From: Basidiobolus meristosporus CBS 931.73
Taxonomy: Eukaryota; Basidiobolomycota; Basidiobolomycetes; Basidiobolales; Basidiobolaceae
Reading direction: 5' to 3'
DNA: 64,000 nucleotides
Assembly (NCBI GenBank): GCA_002104905.1
Contig: MCFE01000038.1
Location: forward strand, 140,215 to 204,214
Below are positions 45,119 to 64,000 of the stretch, piece after piece. Position 1 is the first letter of the stretch; the number at the start of each line of letters is the position of its first letter. The notes below the pieces were generated by a model that had not been told where the DNA came from, made no database searches, and worked only from the letters and a program-made list of their open reading frames with translations. The translations under genes were made by a program, and so were the position numbers.

Positions 45119-46521
45119 GCTCAGTTAGATTTTATGGCTCCCTGCGAAGGATATTTGAGAAGGACGCAGAAGAAACTCCAATAAAGGTATCGGAAATCGA
45201 AGATCACAGATCAATTTGCTACATCATCATTTGTATGAGTGATATTTCGTAACTAAGCCTAATCCCCATCCTAACCAACATGATTAGCGTTTCAATAGGT
45301 CTATTTAACGAAGGATCATGGATTGGACTGCGTTATTTTGGCTATACAACTTGCTCTCCTGCGACCATCTTGAGACAACCATATTGGCGGACAACTAAAT
45401 ATTTGCTCAGTATCGGTACCTGAGAATTGGGGAAATTTGCCAACACATTTGAGATATGAATGGCCGAATCAGAGGTTTGAGGGTGCAACACTTAGCTTTG
45501 GCCAGCGTATCACTCAGCCGACGGTGTAGGCCATTCTTGGCATGCTGGTACCATGACTTTTCCTGTCCGAGTTAGATAACACCGCGAAGGACTACATATG
45601 GCCCAGGTGAAGATAAAGGTACAGGTACAGGTGGGAGTACTCTGCCAATGGCTGGACGCGAATGACATCTGAATAACATCAACTCCAATCCAGTGATTCA
45701 TTCGGATATGACCAGTAATTGATTAGATGAACAGGTCTTGGTTCGTAAGGTGATACTGAAACTCCTTGATCTCTGTTTGTAACTCAATGGTTCGCCCTCC
45801 TGATTTAGGACATCAACCGCGAGGGGTTTATGCTCGTTGACGGATTGAATTCAAAGGGTGGAAGGAGCCAGGATTGGATTTAATTTCAAGACTGGCTCTC
45901 AATCGCGGCACCAGTTGAACTTGCAGCACACCCGTGGTACGGATATTCAATACTTCATTGAATTGATTTGATTGTAGTAATTAAGGTTCCTGCGCACGGG
46001 TAATATTAGCCCAACGGGATTCTAATCATATGCCCCATACTCCGATTGAGATGATCGGGATCTCCGTGGAAATGATTCAATCAATTTGAGCGCAATATGG
46101 AGGTCAGGCCCCAAAGGGCAGTTGAGAGATTCTGATTGATTGCAATGATGCTCTGGTCCAGTCAAGGATGCCATGATGTATTACCAGTTTAGTGGTTTCG
46201 AAAGATTCCTTTGAAATTTGGGAAATGCAAATGATTGTTCGAAACGAGGGTCTTCAGCTGCAAGCTAATATCGAAATCCCAGGCCGTGATTTGACAATCG
46301 CGGAATCTTCGTACGAGAAAAAGATCCCACACCAAGAGAATGAAGGGCTCAACAATACGGGTAACGCTCCTGAAAAGGAAGCTTCCGATGTCGCTCAGTG
46401 GCACTATGTTCTTCATTGAACTGCTATAAAATCCCCAGGTCGATGAATCACTACTGTATATTCCGATCTCCCTTGATCATCCCGCTCGTTAAGAAACTTT
46501 CAGGAAAAGTTGTCCCTTAAA
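45119..46521. other. Divergent spacer (Myb / CHAP 2)
   Basis: No gene seen. A TATAAAA element lies at 46425-46431 before CHAP gene 2. Confidence 0.4.
46425..46431 (+). promoter_or_regulatory. TATA box of CHAP gene 2
   Basis: TATAAAA, 97 bp before ATG 46522, the same distance as in CHAP gene 1. Confidence 0.5.
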
Positions 46522-47493
46522 ATGCATTATTTCTCTCGGTATCTCGTAGTGGCTCTTTGCCTTGGCCTTGCTGTGCAAGCCACCCCAGTAATGGTAAGCG
46601 CCAGCGTCGACGCTAGGTCTTTCCATCCTGAGGCCGCAGGTAGCCCAGGTATTTTTCGCCGCGATAGGCATTCTAGTGGTCATGGAAGAGGTGGTCGAGG
46701 AGACTCTGGTCACAGCATGAAGTCGAGTGATGGTCAGAGCTATGGCGATACGCCTGGCCATAGAATGAAATCAAGTGATGGCCAGAGTTATGGCAATACA
46801 TCTGGTTATGGCCATCGTTCTAGGCCCAGCAAGTATGGCGGTGACATGGGCCGTTCTCATGACGTTGGTAAACACAGAAAGCATAAGGGGAAAAAAGGTC
46901 ACTCGGACGATGGTGGATACGATGGTGGATACGATGGTGGATACGATGGCGGATACGATAGTGGCAATAGCGATTCAAGTGATGATGGCCAGGATGATAA
47001 TGGTGATTCGTATGGTAACTCTGATTCGGGAGACGACACTGACTCCGGTAACACCAGCACACCCACAGATAGCACCGGCGATCAAACCACAAGTGGTAGC
47101 ACCCAGAATAGCACCGATACTAGCACGAGTGCAGGCACAGGAAAGCTTGAATTCCGCTTCCATAATGGTCAATGTACTGATTGGGCAGATGCTCGCTATG
47201 CTCAACTCACTGGACACCATATCAGCTGGTCTGGAGACGCCCGGACTTGGGCAAGTAAGGCACGAAGTGCCAAAGGATGGACGGTCTCAGCTACCCCTAA
47301 GCAGCCTAGTATCATCGTCTTACAGCCAGGGGTTCAAGGTGCTGGCGGTCCAGGTCACGTTGCGGTGGTAGAGAAAATACTTTCCTCAACCACGGTCTCG
47401 ACCAGCAACTACAATTTCAACGGCGGACCATATATCAAGAAAACCGCCACCTTCAAGACAGGAAATGGAGTTGACTTCCTCTGGTATGGCTAG
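46522..47493 (+). CDS. Secreted CHAP-domain protein 2 with low-complexity linker (323 aa)
   Basis: A signal peptide (YLVVALCLGLAVQA, about 8-21) is followed by about 190 residues rich in Gly, Ser, Asp, His and Tyr, then a C-terminal CHAP domain from about 210. The linker contains two copies of MKSSDGQSYG(D/N)T and a GYDG repeat, and ends in an Asp/Ser/Thr-rich stretch likely to be O-glycosylated. The CHAP core carries NGQCTDWADARYAQLTGHH with the presumed catalytic Cys, and GHVAVVEK with the His. It is more similar to CHAP 3 than to CHAP 1 in this core. By family it is a cysteine amidase/peptidase; a wall-bound or secreted role is inferred. Confidence 0.9.
   Translation: MHYFSRYLVVALCLGLAVQATPVMVSASVDARSFHPEAAGSPGIFRRDRHSSGHGRGGRGDSGHSMKSSDGQSYGDTPGHRMKSSDGQSYGNTSGYGHRSRPSKYGGDMGRSHDVGKHRKHKGKKGHSDDGGYDGGYDGGYDGGYDSGNSDSSDDGQDDNGDSYGNSDSGDDTDSGNTSTPTDSTGDQTTSGSTQNSTDTSTSAGTGKLEFRFHNGQCTDWADARYAQLTGHHISWSGDARTWASKARSAKGWTVSATPKQPSIIVLQPGVQGAGGPGHVAVVEKILSSTTVSTSNYNFNGGPYIKKTATFKTGNGVDFLWYG
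46909..46956 (+). repeat. Four 12-bp tandem repeats inside CHAP gene 2
   Basis: Four consecutive units of GATGGTGGATAC (the last with one change) encode DGGY repeats. In-frame length changes here would alter linker length without disrupting the gene. Confidence 0.85.
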
Positions 47494-55814: not shown

Positions 55815-58800
55815 ATGCTGACCATGGGGCATTCGGAACTAACAAGTATTGAAACAAACGCTAAATTATTACCTGTGTCCCTGGAAGAGTATCTGGAATG
55901 CGCAGCCGAGCCCACATTTGTTGTGAAATTTCCTCAAAGCTCACCAACCAACTTTTCACCAACCATTCTATACGCCAACGGCGCACTCTTGAACTTATGT
56001 GGCCCACACTATATGCGACAAGTAAAAAACCTGGACCTACAATGTCTCTTCGATCAGCAGGACCTGTTCGCCTTGAGTAAATGGCTTTACAGAGTCGCCT
56101 ACAATTCAGACAAAACCCCGGTCATAACAGAGCAACGAAATTTAGAATACAGCTTAGACGACGAGCCTAGCACTGCTCAAGGCGAGTCGTCGGGCTCTAC
56201 CATATATATCAAGTGGACTGCGACATGTGTAAAGCAACTTCTCATAGTCGTTAAAGGGAATATACTCGAATCGGACGATGTCGCAAGATATAACACCGCT
56301 TTAGCGATCGCTAGGAGTACCTCAACTGAATATCCAGACGACCAAGTAGGGTATGGCGAAAGCTGGAGAAATATACCCAAAGTAATATTTACAGTTTCTC
56401 ACAATGCTTCACGAAACTCAGTATCTAACTACAATTCCACCAACAGTTTATCGACACCCTTTCTGGTGGAGGTTTTATGGGGGAGTATCTAAGAGGCTAC
56501 GACTGGGACAATAGTTCACTGGGCCCAATTTCACAGTGGCCCCAATCATTACTCACAGCCGTGTCTCTTTGCATGGCATCGTCGTTCCCAATGGCGGTGT
56601 GGTGGGGCCCCAAATTTGTCTTAATCTAGTAAGTATTTGGCTATTCAAGTGACTTCCTTTGGCCGGTTTATTAATGTATTACAGTAATGATGGGTATAGC
56701 GTAGTTGCTGCTGGGAAACATCCTTGGCTCTTCGGAAAGGAGGGTTCAACTGGGTGGAGCGAGATATGGCCAACTTTGGAACCAATGGCGGAAAGTGTTA
56801 TGAACGGGCAAAACTGTTACTCTGAAGATCACTTATTATTCATGACGAGGAATGGATTTATGGAGGAAACATATCACACGGTATTGCTTCTTTTATTATT
56901 TTGGCAAAAGAAAAGTACACGGGCGCCAACCTTTTTCATGTAGTGGTCTTATATACCTATCAGAAGGGAGGATGGATCGGTAGGAGGGTTGTTGAATCCT
57001 TCCATCGAAAGTACAGAAAAAGTGATCTCAGAGCGCCGGCTCAAGACACTACGGAATTTGGGAACGCTGACTGCTGGTGCCAAGCGTTTCGATGAAACAT
57101 TCAGTCTTATATGCCAGGCATTTGAGAGTAATACATACGATATTCCTTTCGCTTTGATTTATTCTTGTGTTTCTCCACTGGGTTCAATGGACGACTCCAT
57201 TGCAGAAAAAATATCTCAATTGGATGCCAAATTTAAGCTGGCTGCTACAGTCGGAATTTCTGACAATCATGCAGCGGCCCCGCACTGCGTAGATATATCC
57301 GACCACAATAACCACCACCCCTGGAAAGATGTTTTCTGCCAGGCTCTAAAAAACAACGCAAAGATCCAAATTAGTAATATTGGTGACTTGTTCTTCGATT
57401 TACCAACCCGAGGCTGGGGAGATTCACCAAGGGAAGCAGTGGCTTGCCCAATTGTGGGTAGCGACCAAGAAAATGTACTGGGTATGCTGCTAATTGGTCT
57501 AAATCCAAGAAGAAGCTACGATGAGGATTACAAGTAGGCTGATTTGAATGCTACTTATTCTATTTCTAATCACAAGTTACTAACATCGCTCAAAGAACAT
57601 TTATAGAGCTGTTATCACGACAAGCTGGAACCTCTCTGGCCACTGTTCGCGCATATGAGGACCAAGTCCGGCGAGCGGAGACTCTGGCGGCTGTCGATCG
57701 TGCTAAAACGGCGTTCTTTAGCTCGGTATCTCACGAGTTACGTACACCGTTAACATTGATACTGGGCCCAATCAAAGAAACCTTGGCGGACCAAAATCTA
57801 GCTCCCGAACAAAAATCCAAGCTAAATATGGTGCTTCGAAATTCCAAGAGATTACTGCGACTGGTAAATTCACTGCTCGACTTCAGCCGAATCGAAGCAG
57901 GAAAGCTACAGGTGACCATCGATTTAACTGCTCTTGAATTCGTGCCCGAGTTAATGTTCTGGCGATTTAGGCAACCTACCGAGAAACCAATCTCGGAATG
58001 TTCACAGCCGATTTGGCCAGCCTTTTCCGCTCAGCGATAGAGAAGAGTGGGCTCATATATAAGGTGGAGTGTGATGAGAGTGGTCGATCTGTGTGGGTGG
58101 ACCCCGAAATGTGGGAAAAGATAGTGTTCAACCTGATAGGGTTTGTCATTTGCAACCACAGTTTGACATTTGCCCCCTGCTTATTGAGTCTGTTCTATAG
58201 AAATGCGTTCAAATTTACACTTAAAGGGAGCATAAAAGTCACTTTACAGCCGGCTCCAGACCGCTCATGCGTTGTATTTTCTGTCGCTGATACAGGCAGT
58301 GGAGTCCCATCACACGAAATCAATAAGATCTTTGAGAGATTTCATCGTATAGAAGGTCAAAAAGGCCGAAGCCATGAGGGAACTGGGATTGGTTTGTCAC
58401 TGACTCAGGAGCTCGTAAAGCTACATGGTGGCCAAGTTGAGGTCAAGAGTGAGTATGGCAAAGGAAGGTTGGTGTTATTAAGTTCGAATTGTGGTCAGTG
58501 TTTTTTTTTAATTTCTCGCAATATTTTCAGTACTTTTTCAGTTACCATTCCATACGGGAGCGCCCATGTACCTCACAGTCAACTTTTAGACAGTGCTATG
58601 CAGTCCGCTGATAACCAACAATTGGCAGGGTCCTGGTCATATGGTTTATCTGTAGTGGAAGAGGCCCGTCTTTGGCTTCCAACTGACGACGAAGATCTCG
58701 AGTATCTTTCGGCTACCTCCAGCACGGATTCTAACAATGGTGCTACTAATACTTTCCCCATATCTAGTTCTGGGTCCAAAATACTACTCGTGGATGACAA

Positions 58801-61561
58801 CTCGGATATGCGCCGGTATGTGAAGGGACTGTTGAATAGGTGGTGGAAAATCACTGAAGCATCAGACGGCGAAGAGGCCTTCAACCTGGCGGTGCAAAAT
58901 CCTCCTGATCTCATCGTTAGCGATGTGATGATGCCCATTTTGGATGGCATTGGGCTGCTCAAGCTTCTAAGGACACATCAAAAAACTCAATTTATTCCAG
59001 TAATACTGCTTAGCGCTCGGGCCGGAGAAGATGCGCGGGTAGAGGGGCTAAAGGCTGGTGCCGATGACTTCCTTGTGAAGCCGTTCAGTGCAAAAGAGCT
59101 TATTGCTCGTGTACACACACATCTAGAACTGGGCAAGTTAAGATCGGAGTTGGAGCGGCTAGTTATCGAAAGAACCAAGGAGCTAGCAGAAAGTGAACTA
59201 CGTTATAGGGTTTTAACAAAGCTCAGCCCGGTTGGAATATTCCGGCTAGATTTGAATGTAAGGGATAATCATCCAATGGCCAATGGTCAATATCACGAGT
59301 CCTTATACCAACACTAATATCAATTACAGGGAATCATCACATATACAAATGACAAATGGTGGCAGATATCAGGACACGACCGTAAGCAAGATCCGGGTGC
59401 GCTGAATTTCATGTCAAGGTATAGTGGCAGAGTGTGACCGAAAAGGCTTAAGAATCGTAAATAATACCATTTTCACAAGTATCTATCATGAGGATCGTGA
59501 ACGCACAACGAGCATCTTCAAAGAGTGTATCCAAAAGGCAAAAGGCTTCATTATTGAGTTTCGTTGGAATTCAATCAATGGTGGAGTGAAATGGAGTTTG
59601 GGTAAGACGAAGCGTGCGTAAATCTTGTGTGGTGTCCGGTTCATTCAATGTGATCTATGACCTATCAATATAGGGGAAGTAATCGTAGAGTACGATGATC
59701 AACTGAAACCACGCGGCTTTGTTGGGACACTGACTGACATAACCGAAAGAAAGATGCTGGAGAAGGAACGCCTGAGAGCATTGCAGCTCGCCGAGCAGCA
59801 ACAGCGACGTCGTGCCGAGGATGCGGAGGAAATTAAGAGACAACAAGAACTGTTCATTGATATGACTTGCCATGAATTCCGAAACCCGTTAAATGGCATT
59901 TACCACAACGCAGATTTCCTGTACGAGAGTCTGGAAAAGCTTCAGAACGATGTAAGAAACGAGAGTATTTTGAAGGTGATGAATTGGCTGAATAGCGAAA
60001 TTGAAGAAGATTTGGAGGCTGTTGCAACCATCACACTGTGTGCACAACACCAGAAGGTATTGCATGTCATTCATATCTGACGTTCCATTCTAACCATTGA
60101 TATTGCAGAAAATTGCTGATGATGTCCTCAATATGTCCAAAATTAGCATGAATTTGCTGGTTCTGGCTAAAACGGAATTTCAGCCACATGCCGTGGTTAC
60201 AAATGTACTGCGTATGTTTGAGACTGAAGTAAAGCTCAAGAACATCGCTTTGGAGTTTAAAGTGGGCGAAGAATTTTCTCGAAGGCATATCAGTTGGGTC
60301 AAAGGAGATCCAACACGACTTTCACAGGTTTTGTAAGTAAGCTCGGTTCGACATTAACACCCTATCTTTCACTCACCAAGTTGATAGGATCAATTTTTTG
60401 ACCAATGCCATCCGGTTCACTGAAAAGGTGGCAATACGCCATATCACAGTGACGATGGAGGCATTCGATATGGCCCCTTATTCTTCTACACGCATTGAAA
60501 ACTGCTTGAGCTCAGCAGAGGACTCGGATCAAGACCAGGACAACATTTCCATTTCCAGTTCTACTTGGTCAACCAGCACTGATCGTCATCTTCCAGAATG
60601 CATATCCAATCCAGGCAATATGGATGATATTGATCCGGCAGACGCCGTATATGTGGAGATCTCCATCAGAGACAGCGGGGTGGGTATGACAACTGAGGAA
60701 CAGGCTTCCCTTTTCCGTCGATTTACACAAGCCAGTCCGAAAACCTATGCAGAGTTTGGAGGAAGTGGTCTTGGGCTGTTTATCAGCAAGCGTCTGGTAG
60801 AGCTGCATGGCGGAAGTATCAAAGTCCATTCTGTTAAAGGCAGTGGGACGACATTCTCGTTCTTTATCAAATGCGAGAGGTCGGAAGAAAAAGGGGCGCC
60901 GCAGACGGAGCAACATGAAGTCGAGGCCCGAAATGCAAACACAAGGTCACTAGCAAAATTGAAACCCCTTAGCACGAGAAAAGTGAAAAGCCCTGGTAGA
61001 GCAAACGAAAGCAGGGGCTTAGATCGAGATGACGAAACAAGCAATAGAAAGGTGAAGGTTAAAAATACCCAATCTCCAACCAAGTCCGAAGATTCGACGA
61101 CCTCTCCCATCTCGTCAAAAAGAATTTTGGTGGTGGAAGATAACATTATAAACCAACGAGTACTCAAACGGCAATTGGAGCTGGCCAGATATTCTGTGCA
61201 TGTTGCTAAGCATGGACTAGAGGCACTGGAGATATTAAAAGCAGTCGTAGTGGACTTGATTTTGATGGTAAGTTATAGTAACCGAATCTACATATGCTGA
61301 GTGTTGACAGGATTCACACCTATCCAGGATTTGGAAATGCCGGTCATGGGAGGGCTCGAGTGTACAAAGCACATACGCCAAGATGGATCCAACGCAAATC
61401 TATGCTATGTACCAATCATTGGAGTGTCTGGGAACACACGGACGGAGTACAAGCATCTTGCCATGGAAGCAGGAATGTCCGCATACATTACAAAACCTTA
61501 CAACAAGGGCGAATTAATACAACTGATTGATGATCTGATAGATCACACAACTACAAAGTGA
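55815..61561 (+). CDS. Double hybrid histidine kinase (two HK and two receiver modules)
   Basis: Fourteen exons give 1648 aa (55815-56381, 56447-56628, 56685-56880, 56944-57533, 57596-57911, 57971-58140, 58201-58467, 58531-59257, 59330-59418, 59480-59601, 59674-60056, 60109-60332, 60388-61267, 61328-61561). The sensor region carries PAS- and GAF-like sequences. Kinase core 1 has SHELRTPL (His558), NAFKFT, DTGSGVP and GTGIGLSL. Receiver 1 has SDVMMP (Asp894), LSA and VKPF. A PAS segment follows (SPVGIFRLDLNG). Kinase core 2 has CHEFRNPL (His1142), NAIRFT, DSGVGMT and GSGLGLFI. Receiver 2 has ILMDLEMP (Asp1572) and TKPY. All phosphorelay residues are intact. No transmembrane helix, so cytosolic. 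It should feed a phosphotransfer protein and response regulators. Resembles dual kinases such as Cryptococcus Tco2. Confidence 0.93.
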
Positions 61562-61869: not shown

Positions 61870-62070
61870 ATAACTAGTTGATTAAGTGGTTTTCACTTAA
61901 TGATTTATTAAATATAAGGTTATATCTGTGGTTTTACATGGTCTTAGCAAACAAACACATATAATATGCTTGGGAAGGTCCCAAAAACATGTGCGCAAAG
62001 TTTGGCCAACTTACCAAAATTTCATGTTCTGGGTAACTAATGTTGTGGTGAAAATATTGTAAGTAAAGGT
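61870..62070 (+). mobile_element. Relic arm of the inverted-repeat element
   Basis: The stretch follows, with many changes, the same order of words as the right arm at 8.65-8.85 kb: TTCACTTAATGATTTATT, TACATG(G/T)TCTT, GGGAAGG, TTTCATGTTCTGGGTA and GGTGAAAATA. Only one arm is present. It stops at about 62068, exactly where the first TTAGGG-like tract and retroelement junction begin. Confidence 0.7.
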
Positions 62071-62110
62071 TTAGGGGAGGGAAAGTCACCAATATGGGTG
62101 AAATCTTTAA
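62071..62110 (-). mobile_element. Retroelement 3' end, copy 1 (severely 5'-truncated)
   Basis: TTTAGGGGAGGGAAAG is joined to a hairpin with stem TCACC 62086-62090 and GGTGA 62097-62101, then AAATCTTT. Only about 40 bp of the element remain before another G-rich tract. Read on the minus strand this is the 3' terminus of the element. Confidence 0.6.
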
Positions 62111-62135
62111 AGGGAGGGAAATTTTAGGGGGGGGG

Positions 62136-62165
62136 GAGACAGTCACCAACAGATGAAATTGTTGT
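62136..62165 (-). mobile_element. Retroelement 3' end, copy 2 (diverged)
   Basis: A G-run (TTTTAGGGGGGGGGG, 62122-62136) precedes a hairpin with arms TCACC 62143-62147 and GATGA 62152-62156. On the minus strand the arms are UCAUC and GGUGA, which still pair with one U-G wobble. On the plus strand the same change would be a mismatch. Confidence 0.5.
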
Positions 62166-62170
62166 GTCAG

Positions 62171-62517
62171 TTAGGGGGGCTAGGGGAGGGAAAGTCACCA
62201 AGTTGGTGAAATCATTATATAAGTCAAGAACTAATCAAAGCACAAATAAAGAAGCCAATTAAGAAGTCTAGAACCTCTCTAATAAGTAATCTAACTTATG
62301 ATTTGTTTCATCTCTTATGTTTGTTTCAATCAAGTAAAGCTCATCAGGGGTATATATAAAATTCAAGGGCTTTGGGGGAAGTACAAATTGTAGATGTTTC
62401 TGATCAATATAATCCAAGACTGGAACCCAGCCTGGGATTAGGTGTGGTAGGAAAGGTGTGTGGACTTGTAAGTAGCTCTGCCACATAGATCTAAGATGGT
62501 CCTGAGCCAGTAGTCTT
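62171..62517 (-). mobile_element. 5'-truncated telomeric retroelement, copy 3
   Basis: The 3' junction TTAGGGGGGCTAGGGGAGGG (62171-62190) is followed by a hairpin (TCACC 62195-62199, GGTGA 62205-62209). A 3' UTR shared with copy 4 follows (CACAAATAAAGAAGCCA at 62241-62257, colinear with 62588-62604), then the end of a coding frame. The element breaks off at 62517 against GGGTTAGGGTTAGGGG. The order telomere tract, element 3' end, truncated body, telomere tract is that expected if each copy was added to a chromosome end. Confidence 0.7.
62268..62515 (-). pseudogene. C-terminal fragment of a retroelement ORF
   Basis: An open frame runs from the telomeric junction to a stop at 62268, about 80 aa, with no start of its own. 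It has a coding-like composition (QSYLQVHTPFLPHLIPGW, PPKPLNFIYTPDELYLIE, DYLLERF). It differs from the Gag-like ORF of copy 4, so it may be the tail of a second protein encoded by a longer, autonomous family member. No domain recognised. Confidence 0.45.
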
Positions 62518-62533
62518 GGGTTAGGGTTAGGGG
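62518..62533 (+). repeat. Internal telomeric repeat remnant
   Basis: GGGTTAGGGTTAGGGG lies 1.2 kb inside the current telomere, in the same orientation, exactly between retroelement copies 3 and 4. Confidence 0.85.
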
Positions 62534-62540
62534 AGGGAAA

Positions 62541-62558
62541 GTCACCAAGGTAGGTGAA
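62541..62558 (-). promoter_or_regulatory. 3'-terminal RNA hairpin of copy 4
   Basis: Minus strand UCACC, six-base loop, GGUGA, followed by CUUUCCCUCCCCUAACCC. Four copies of the stem are present in the window with different loops (see findings). Proposed recognition site for reverse transcription. Confidence 0.55.
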
Positions 62559-62655
62559 ATCTTTATTTGAATGCAGACAAGTCTAACTACAAATAAAGAA
62601 GCCAGCTGGGAATAGAAGATTCCCAAAGTAAACACTAAGTTGAATATGAATAAAT

Positions 62656-63384
62656 CTAAGCTAAAGTTAAGGCAGTATCCCAGAGTACACTGGAGTTCAG
62701 GTTCATGGGGGAGTGAAGTAGATAAGCTTGAGAGATATAATAATCTTTGAGATAGTGGGTAACAGCAGGTAAAGGGAAGTTTTTGATAAGTGAAGTGAAT
62801 CTTGAGAGCAGAGATTCCTCTAATGAGAAGGTCTTGTAAACTGGAGAATCAGGAAACTCTTTAAAGGCATGTTCAGTAGGTTCCCAGTAAAACTGGTCAG
62901 AGACATTTTGAGAGAACTCTTTAGCAATACTTTTATCAAGTACTACCTCCAGAGTGTGATTGTTGATAAATCTCATGTTGACAATCTTGGATAAATTGTA
63001 ACCTTGTTGCTTGAGATACATCCTATGCTCAGATATAGGAATGAACTCCACATTGGCAAAGTAGCAGACAGCCCAGTCAGTAGCAGGAGGCAAATCAGAA
63101 GTAGCAGGAAACTTTCTTTTAGTCTTGGGAGGAGCAACAGGATGTCTTGAGGAAGCAGGAACAGGCTTTTTGACAGCTTCAGAGTAGGAAGAGTGAGCAG
63201 GAGCAGATGATTCTTGGGGAGTCTTGTTGACAGGAACAGCTGGCAGAGAGACAATAGATTCTTGCAGATCAGAGAAGGCAGAAAACAGCTTTTGAACTTG
63301 TTTCTTGAGTAAAGCATTTTCAGCTTCAACAAGTGCAAGCCTTTCCTCAAGGAAGGAAATCTGAAGGGAATGGAGTGAAGGCAT
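62656..63384 (-). CDS. Gag/ORF1-like protein of telomeric retroelement (242 aa)
   Basis: I start at the first ATG (63384). Residues about 8-45 form a coiled coil (FLEERLALVEAENALLKKQ, then VQKLFSAFSDLQESI). A Pro/Ser/Ala/Lys-rich hinge follows (PVAPPKTKRKFP). From about 100 a folded region (WAVCYFANVEFIPISEHRM, LSKIVNMRFINNHTLEVVLD) has the spacing of the RRM-like core in LINE ORF1 or Gag-like proteins. No zinc knuckle is seen. Coiled coil, basic hinge, then RRM-like core is the ORF1 plan and suggests RNA binding and multimerisation of the element transcript. The frame is intact, which implies recent activity. The family call is inference from architecture; a host subtelomeric protein is the alternative. 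Confidence 0.55.
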   Translation of the reverse strand: MPSLHSLQISFLEERLALVEAENALLKKQVQKLFSAFSDLQESIVSLPAVPVNKTPQESSAPAHSSYSEAVKKPVPASSRHPVAPPKTKRKFPATSDLPPATDWAVCYFANVEFIPISEHRMYLKQQGYNLSKIVNMRFINNHTLEVVLDKSIAKEFSQNVSDQFYWEPTEHAFKEFPDSPVYKTFSLEESLLSRFTSLIKNFPLPAVTHYLKDYYISQAYLLHSPMNLNSSVLWDTALTLA

Positions 63385-63426
63385 AAGAAATAAGAAGAAG
63401 AGGGTAGGATGGGGTGGGAGGGTGGG

Positions 63427-63751
63427 AAAATTAGCAGGGAGAAGAGAAGGAAGGAGCAAAAATTCCAGAAGTCAGAATTTATAGATGGATGGACAAGGGT
63501 AGATGGATGGATTATTCCTGGGTTAGGAAAATTAGCAGGGAGAAGAGAAGGAAGGAGCAAAAATTCCAGAAGTCAGAATTTATAGATGGATGGACAAGGG
63601 TAGATGGATGGATTATTCCTGGGTTAGGAAAATTAGCAGGGAGAAGAGAAGGAAGGAGCAAAAATTCCAGAAGTCAGAATTTATAGATGGATGGACAAGG
63701 GTAGATGGATGGATTATTCCTGGGTTAGGAAAATTAGCAGGGAGAAGAGAA
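63427..63751. repeat. 101-bp tandem repeat (three full copies plus 22 bp)
   Basis: Near-identical units start at 63427, 63528 and 63629, with a partial one at 63730 that is cut by the telomere. From the second unit on, each is preceded by CCTGGGTTAGG, a telomere-like word. The frames translated across them (starting at 63489, 63590 and 63691) are repeats of one another and not genes. They lie where the 5' UTR or promoter of the retroelement should be. Confidence 0.9.
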
Positions 63752-64000
63752 GGGTTAGGGTTAGGGTTAGGGTTAGGGTTAGGGTTAGGTTAGGGTTAGG
63801 GTTAGGGTTAGGGTTAGGGTTAGGGTTAGGGTTAGGGTTAGGGTTAGGGTTAGGGTTAGGGTTAGGGTTAGGGTTAGGGTTAGGGTTAGGGTTAGGGTTA
63901 GGGTTAGGGTTAGGGTTAGGGTTAGGGTTAGGGTTAGGGTTAGGGTTAGGGTTAGGGTTAGGGTTAGGGTTAGGGTTAGGGTTAGGGTTAGGTTAGGGTT
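63752..64000 (+). repeat. Telomere (TTAGGG)n
   Basis: About 40 TTAGGG units run to the window end, G-rich strand 5' to 3' toward the end. Two units are shortened to TTAGG (near 63785 and 63990). This is the chromosome end; the array starts abruptly inside the fourth 101-bp unit. Confidence 0.98.

Follow-up and report, generated by a model that had tools for sequence, protein, structure and literature searches.

How one chromosome end came to carry a row of retroelement copies, all turned the same way and each set off by a short piece of telomeric repeat, is the question raised by the right-hand part of a 64,000-nucleotide stretch (hereafter the window) of contig MCFE01000038.1, positions 140,215 to 204,214, from Basidiobolus meristosporus CBS 931.73. 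The contig stops at the window end, in TTAGGG telomere. A first-pass annotation of this DNA had placed the host among the early-diverging fungi, which agrees with the species name, since Basidiobolus is an early-diverging fungal lineage. The answer proposed here is that the copies probably belong to a guild of telomere-dwelling retroelements without long terminal repeats (non-LTR), which were primed on chromosome ends nearly devoid of repeats and then capped by telomerase.

A pattern for the 3' tail of the elements, with up to three mismatches allowed, was searched in the window and gave four matches on one strand, compared with a mean of 0.00 in 100 shuffles. The four 3' ends that had been described as facing the centromere were thus recovered. 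The parts of the array are:

62074, 62131, 62183 and 62530, one strand: four element 3' tails from the pattern search
62070 to 62109, minus strand: copy 1, a 3' tail stub of about 36 bp at 62074-62109, with TTTAGGGG at 62070-62077 on the centromeric side
62122 to 62169, minus strand: copy 2, a degenerate stub with a family-B-type tail (3 mismatches) and TTTTAGGG at 62122-62129 on the centromeric side
62170 to 62186, plus strand: interstitial tract GTTAGGGGGGCTAGGGG at the boundary of copies 2 and 3 (sequence and junction list)
62183 to 62519, minus strand: copy 3, 5'-truncated, with a family-D-type tail (tail comparison and open reading frame, ORF)
62268 to 62486: 72-residue ORF of copy 3, matching the C-terminus of the 949-residue ORF2 in locus L039
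62520 to 62533, plus strand: interstitial tract GTTAGGGTTAGGGG at the boundary of copies 3 and 4 (sequence and junction list)
62530 to 63753, minus strand: copy 4, a family A gag-only element; its 5' terminus is CCTTCTCTTCTCCC (sense), an end that recurs
62656 to 63384, minus strand: gag-like ORF of copy 4, 242 residues from the first in-frame Met and 267 from an upstream TTG
63425 to 63753, minus strand: 3.3 tandem monomers of 101 bp, each with a TATA-like box, at the telomeric (5') end of copy 4
63754 to 64000, plus strand: terminal TTAGGG telomere at the contig end

A TTAGGG-like tract was found on the centromeric side of every copy, and the live telomere beyond the outermost copy closes the contig, both as first described. 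The spacing grows outward only roughly (57, 52 and 347 bp between tails, and 1,224 bp from the last tail to the telomere). Copies 1 and 2 are stubs of about 40 bp, copy 3 codes for at least the last 72 residues of the ORF2 of a long interspersed nuclear element (LINE), and only copy 4 is near full length. The first-pass annotation had assigned the array to a single retroelement family; the array itself stands, and one element as the source of all four copies was ruled out, because their tails belong to different family types. The window copies are truncated LINE remnants, tail stubs and one gag-only element.

To judge from their sequences, the elements of this genome form five families with a common 3' tail: the LINEs B and D, the gag-only families A and E, and a short interspersed nuclear element (SINE), C. 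The longer members with a reverse transcriptase (RT) and the same 3' tail, which had been suggested as something to look for, therefore exist as two LINE families. Family B has an ORF1 of about 500 residues with zinc-ribbon-like cysteines and an ORF2 of 922 residues with an RVT_1 domain, and family D, in L039, has an ORF1 frame of 497 and an ORF2 frame of 949 residues. Copies of family A (outermost copy of the window), of B ORF2 and of the SINE were counted among the best-scored candidates. The 49 scored copies of B ORF2 were 98-100% identical, and 46 of them were without stops; of the 65 matches listed for the family A copy, 44 (the copy itself among them) were near full length, with 95-100% identity; and of the 65 listed for the SINE, 57 covered all or almost all of it with 96-100% identity, some of them in tandem with a period near 528 bp. 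The gag proteins of A and E are 45% identical. For family E, 46 matches spanned the whole or nearly the whole 264-residue query at 88% identity or more, 40 of them without stops, in a search that gave 146 matches in all, members of family A included. The elements show a constant 3' end with variable 5' truncation, which is a LINE hallmark. The SINE is about 530 bp long and has A and B boxes at tRNA-like spacing; the RNA polymerase III A/B box pattern, written after the sequence had been seen, matched once in locus L043 and not at all in 200 shuffles. No tRNA was recognised in the SINE by Rfam or ARAGORN. Several short hairpin-like CCTRG-NNNN-CYAGG repeats were seen by eye in the SINE body (L043:918-1430; also L043:1369-1422), and they may be an RNA structure of the SINE itself.

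The exact tail, GTCACCAAN{2,4}GGTGAAATC, occurred 1,613 times in 89 Mb (1,477 forward, 136 reverse), and a control pattern gave no match. Contig sizes were bounded from the contig numbers, taken as size rank, which gave a summed estimate of 89.28 Mb versus 89.01 Mb. On contigs of at least 40 kb, 115 of the 116 listed copies have the 5' end toward the nearest contig end (B ORF2 41/42, gag A 31/31, SINE 43/43), and 106 lie within 10 kb of a contig end even at the upper size bound. On shorter contigs 31 of 34 listed copies face the nearest end; the three misoriented ones are all on contigs below 25 kb, for which the nearest end is hardly informative. The orientation of exact tails was checked for the first 100 listed, which cover contigs C1-C91: the 11 contigs longer than 100 kb have 39 of them, every one facing outward and no more than about 22 kb from an end, and on 17 shorter contigs the remaining 61 keep to a single orientation in each contig. 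Contig C80 has its array at the left end, and the telomere of C2 reaches 264158. Both samples agree with the expectation that telomere-proximal copies should sit at contig ends and turn their 5' end outward, and the copies were neither mostly internal nor in both orientations, except for one inverted pair in contig C726. Across the assembly, telomeric repeats show a peculiar bias in orientation, with nearly all matches in the forward direction at the right ends of contigs (8,002 forward versus 103 reverse).

What the five families have in common is the tail, which in the sense strand of the alignment consists of GGCTTCTTT, AAATAAAGATTTCACC, a short loop, GGTGA, a pyrimidine run and CCCC(TAACCC). 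In the RNA the layout is AATAAA, hairpins, a C-rich run and one or two units of UAACCC, and RNA 3' ends are predicted within CCCCUAACCC. In single-sequence folds two hairpins form in each of A, B, C and D, and E in its best fold has the first hairpin only; the loops vary among families, and the first stem is maintained. Since the MAFFT alignment misplaces part of the first stem in B, base pairs were not counted. The tail folds of A, B, D and E are more stable than those of shuffles (z -2.7 to -3.1). At the other end of the elements, a recurrent 5' end lies 33 nt downstream of a TATA-like box in the monomers (A 87/91, E 4/4, B 2/3, counted as pattern matches with overlapping loci included), and the monomer period is 101 bp in A, 100 bp in B and 103 bp in E. 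The monomers are probably promoter units, whose start site would set the full-length 5' end. The RNA 5' ends would then be CCTTCTC (A), CCTCTTT (B), CCTCTCT (E) and CCAAGAAC (SINE).

The ratio of nonsynonymous to synonymous polymorphism (pN/pS) is 0.33 for the gag A ORF (26 distinct full-length copies; two further ones are truncated) and 0.21 for family B ORF2 (12 copies), and both are under purifying selection. No homologue of gag A was found at E <= 0.001 among 5.8 billion proteins (716 candidates). Its structure model, with a mean predicted local distance difference test (pLDDT) score of 69, has a coiled coil, a beta-alpha-beta-beta-alpha part resembling an RNA recognition motif (RRM) and C-terminal helices; a fold search of the PDB with this model gave no match at E <= 0.001 and several RRM-like matches in the top rows. 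The reverse transcriptase of ORF2 is recognised as RVT_1 (E 2.6e-25 in B, 3.5e-20 in D), and LINE-1 ORF2 proteins are its closest solved relatives by sequence; the ORF2 structure model (mean pLDDT 52.6) was not used. In the region resembling an apurinic/apyrimidinic endonuclease (APE), Asp replaces the catalytic Glu in B, D, P0001 and P0003, the four sequences that extend over this region. An element of the CRE type, with a restriction-enzyme-like (REL) endonuclease, was rejected, since a motif search, the only search made for it, found no REL-type CCHC motif in B or D ORF2. On metagenome-type contigs there are five unnamed proteins (P0001-P0005) with 48-80% identity to B ORF2, and the family therefore exists beyond strain CBS 931.73. 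For the host, a telomerase RNA-binding domain was found at contig C880.

The junctions bear most directly on how the copies were added. The centromeric-side tract was counted at 133 distinct 3' junctions: it had one unit in 72, two units in 33, three in 6, four in 6, six in 1 and seven in 1; no unit was counted in 14, an upper limit, as by eye about half of these hold a unit missed by the expression of the script. Tracts of 0-2 TTAGGG units were thus found at 119 of 133 junctions, versus 120-249 bp (median 202.5, n=16) for terminal tracts, and this difference was counted for end priming. Random insertion along long telomeres was rejected, because tracts of up to four units were seen at 131/133 junctions compared with about 13% expected if insertion were uniform along the telomere. 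At truncated 5' ends the overlap between element and telomere register averages 1.88 nt, versus 0.38 at random; this microhomology was also counted for end priming. It was measured on the 52 clean junctions of 100 mapped from 121; 33 with additional bases were omitted, as were 15 that ran up to the end of the reference. At some junctions, for example at position 965 of L040, the element is joined to non-telomeric sequence without a repeat unit. The SINE-SINE junctions of one array in contig C96 are unlike each other, and separate additions are therefore favoured. Similar reasoning is applied to junctions of MoTeR arrays in the available part of PMC7367193.

These facts suggest the following course of events. 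The ORF2 reverse transcriptase would bind the tail of the element RNA, in cis or in trans, and the C-rich RNA 3' end (CCCUAACCC) would pair over a few bases with the G-rich 3' end of a repeat-depleted chromosome. The RNA would be copied from this chromosome-end primer, so that the 3' end of the element would face inward. Synthesis would halt at the RNA start or earlier, telomerase would cap the new end, and repeated erosion and addition would build head-to-tail arrays. We infer the pairing of the tail with the overhang, the reverse transcription and the recapping; the short tracts, the microhomology and the telomerase gene fit these steps. Further points counted for the guild of end-primed elements were the outward orientation and nearness to ends, the tail common to five families, the junctions that lack a repeat unit, the unlike SINE-SINE junctions, the telomerase RNA-binding domain, and the near-identity of the B ORF2 copies, most of them open. 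A stronger version, in which two end-maintenance systems would operate at once, can be put forward only tentatively: the RNAs of the guild would carry a telomerase-like template (CCCUAACCC), the LINE reverse transcriptase, aided by gag, would extend repeat-depleted ends, and telomerase would add only the cap.

Three other explanations were weighed. TRAS and SART of Bombyx are APE-type LINEs that insert within telomeric repeat arrays. In a process of this kind, the ORF2 endonuclease would nick the G strand within the repeats for target-primed reverse transcription, the distal telomere would stay outside the element, and the inner tracts would contract later. The APE-like region, in which most catalytic residues are retained, and the telomeric sequence on both sides of the element agree with this process. 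However, the inner tracts have only 0-4 units in nearly all junctions and are equally short beside copies that are 98-100% identical, the repeat unit is missing at some junctions, and the catalytic Glu is replaced by Asp. This explanation was considered unlikely, and priming on nearly repeat-less ends with a later telomerase cap is favoured over nicking inside telomeres. Still less probable is that break-induced replication spread blocks of elements among chromosome ends with little current retrotransposition, for which there is precedent in MoTeR arrays, as far as the accessible text of PMC7367193 goes, and which would account for the high similarity of the copies. However, each of the 133 junctions is distinct in sequence, neighbours and truncation points differ between copies, the SINE-SINE junctions within one array differ, and gag and ORF2 are under purifying selection; recombination may nevertheless act alongside retrotransposition. 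That the arrays were assembled from collapsed or chimaeric telomeric reads, as the 1,311 contigs (several short ones seemingly array only) and the excess of right-end telomeres might suggest, is highly improbable and was rejected as a full explanation, since flanks, elements and telomere differ at the ends of many independent contigs and the proteins are conserved, with relatives in metagenomes.

Several observations weigh against priming on repeat-depleted ends. The tracts could have become shorter once the element was in place, and microhomology would likewise result from ends that telomerase healed and whose tracts later eroded. The APE-like region retains N, Y, GDxN and SDH, so nicking is possible; its match to Pfam falls short of the curated cut-off in B, and D has none. 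The SINE tail is not more stable than its shuffles (z -1.17). AATAAA hints at polyadenylation, yet the junctions carry no copied poly(A); by eye, no long T run was seen in 96 junctions, which have TTAGGG instead. Nine telomere-bearing contigs were identified in C1-C91 (C1, C2, C21, C22, C35, C47, C58, C62 and C81), with one telomere pattern that misses telomeres whose first repeat comes after G; seven of the nine have an exact tail and two (C35, C81) are without. Contig C726 holds the one inverted internal LINE-SINE pair, about 10 kb inside a right end that has telomere and outward-oriented tails, and this is perhaps an old end fusion or a fold-back. The pair, a family-B LINE and a SINE (L067, L074), occupies C726:56456-59800 of 69561, and Copia-like coding sequence was seen by eye on one side of it. 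Finally, the mechanism is read here from the genome sequence of a single strain.

The guild was also compared with known systems. HeT-A, TART and TAHRE of Drosophila, an organism without telomerase, form head-to-tail arrays at chromosome ends with the 3' end inward, and gag-only elements stand beside RT-bearing ones. Similarly, the gag-only families A and E accompany the RT-bearing B and D at chromosome ends with the 3' end inward; however, Basidiobolus retains a telomerase domain and TTAGGG caps, and its junctions are without poly(A). Like TRAS and SART, the Basidiobolus LINEs have an APE-like region and live at telomeres of a host with telomeric repeats, but their inner tracts are nearly absent. 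LINE-tailed tRNA SINEs have a tRNA-like head and a 3' tail in common with a partner LINE, as does family C, whose full copies differ from them in standing in chromosome-end arrays (all outward on contigs of at least 40 kb).

Among fungi, MoTeR1 and MoTeR2 of Magnaporthe oryzae are an RT-bearing element and an RT-less partner with the terminal 77 bp in common (PMC7367193, in part). According to the same portion of that source, the 5' end points outward in head-to-tail arrays, TTAGGG tracts stand between copies and the RT-less partner has a common end, all as in Basidiobolus. The differences from what is described there are that MoTeR1 has a REL endonuclease, whereas Basidiobolus ORF2 has an APE-like N-terminus and the CCHC/REL motif was not found in it; that MoTeR tracts hold anything between half a unit and over 20 units, versus 0-7 in Basidiobolus; and that the Basidiobolus elements fall into five families, among them two gag-only ones and a SINE. 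FoTeR of Fusarium oxysporum, in the accessible part of PMC12857005, resembles the guild in its telomere-only location, outward 5' end, tandem repeats near the 5' end and purifying selection on the RT of intact copies. It differs in that its RT is CRE-like with a REL domain and its 3' ends adjoin 3-7 repeats, and no SINE or gag-only partner is described for it in that part of PMC12857005. The guild works like the HeT-A/TART and MoTeR arrays, yet fails one defining feature of each. A literature search that covered few subscription papers found neither a description of telomeric retroelements in Basidiobolus nor one of a SINE specific to telomeres.

On the centromeric side of the array, the last host genes are two adjoining stretches with histidine-kinase ATPase and response-regulator domains (window 57971-61561, plus strand). 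Further inward, a secreted-looking protein with a CHAP domain (E 5.4e-14) is encoded at 46477-47493 on the plus strand; this domain is most familiar from wall enzymes of bacteria.

In the available part of PMC12857005, MoTeR1, FoTeR and Cnl1, all telomeric elements of fungi, fall among the CRE-type elements. The different LINE architecture in an early-diverging fungus means that telomere life may have arisen again. The division of labour known from HeT-A/TART recurs here, with gag-only elements under selection beside RT-bearing ones, in a host that has not lost telomerase, and the short tracts make the choice between nicking and end priming directly testable. A SINE in the telomeric niche would let one ask how little an RNA needs for being copied onto a chromosome end. 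If the tentative version with two end-maintenance systems were true, Basidiobolus would be a living intermediate, standing between telomeres that depend on telomerase alone and the retroelement-based ones of Drosophila, and it would have a telomere-living SINE.
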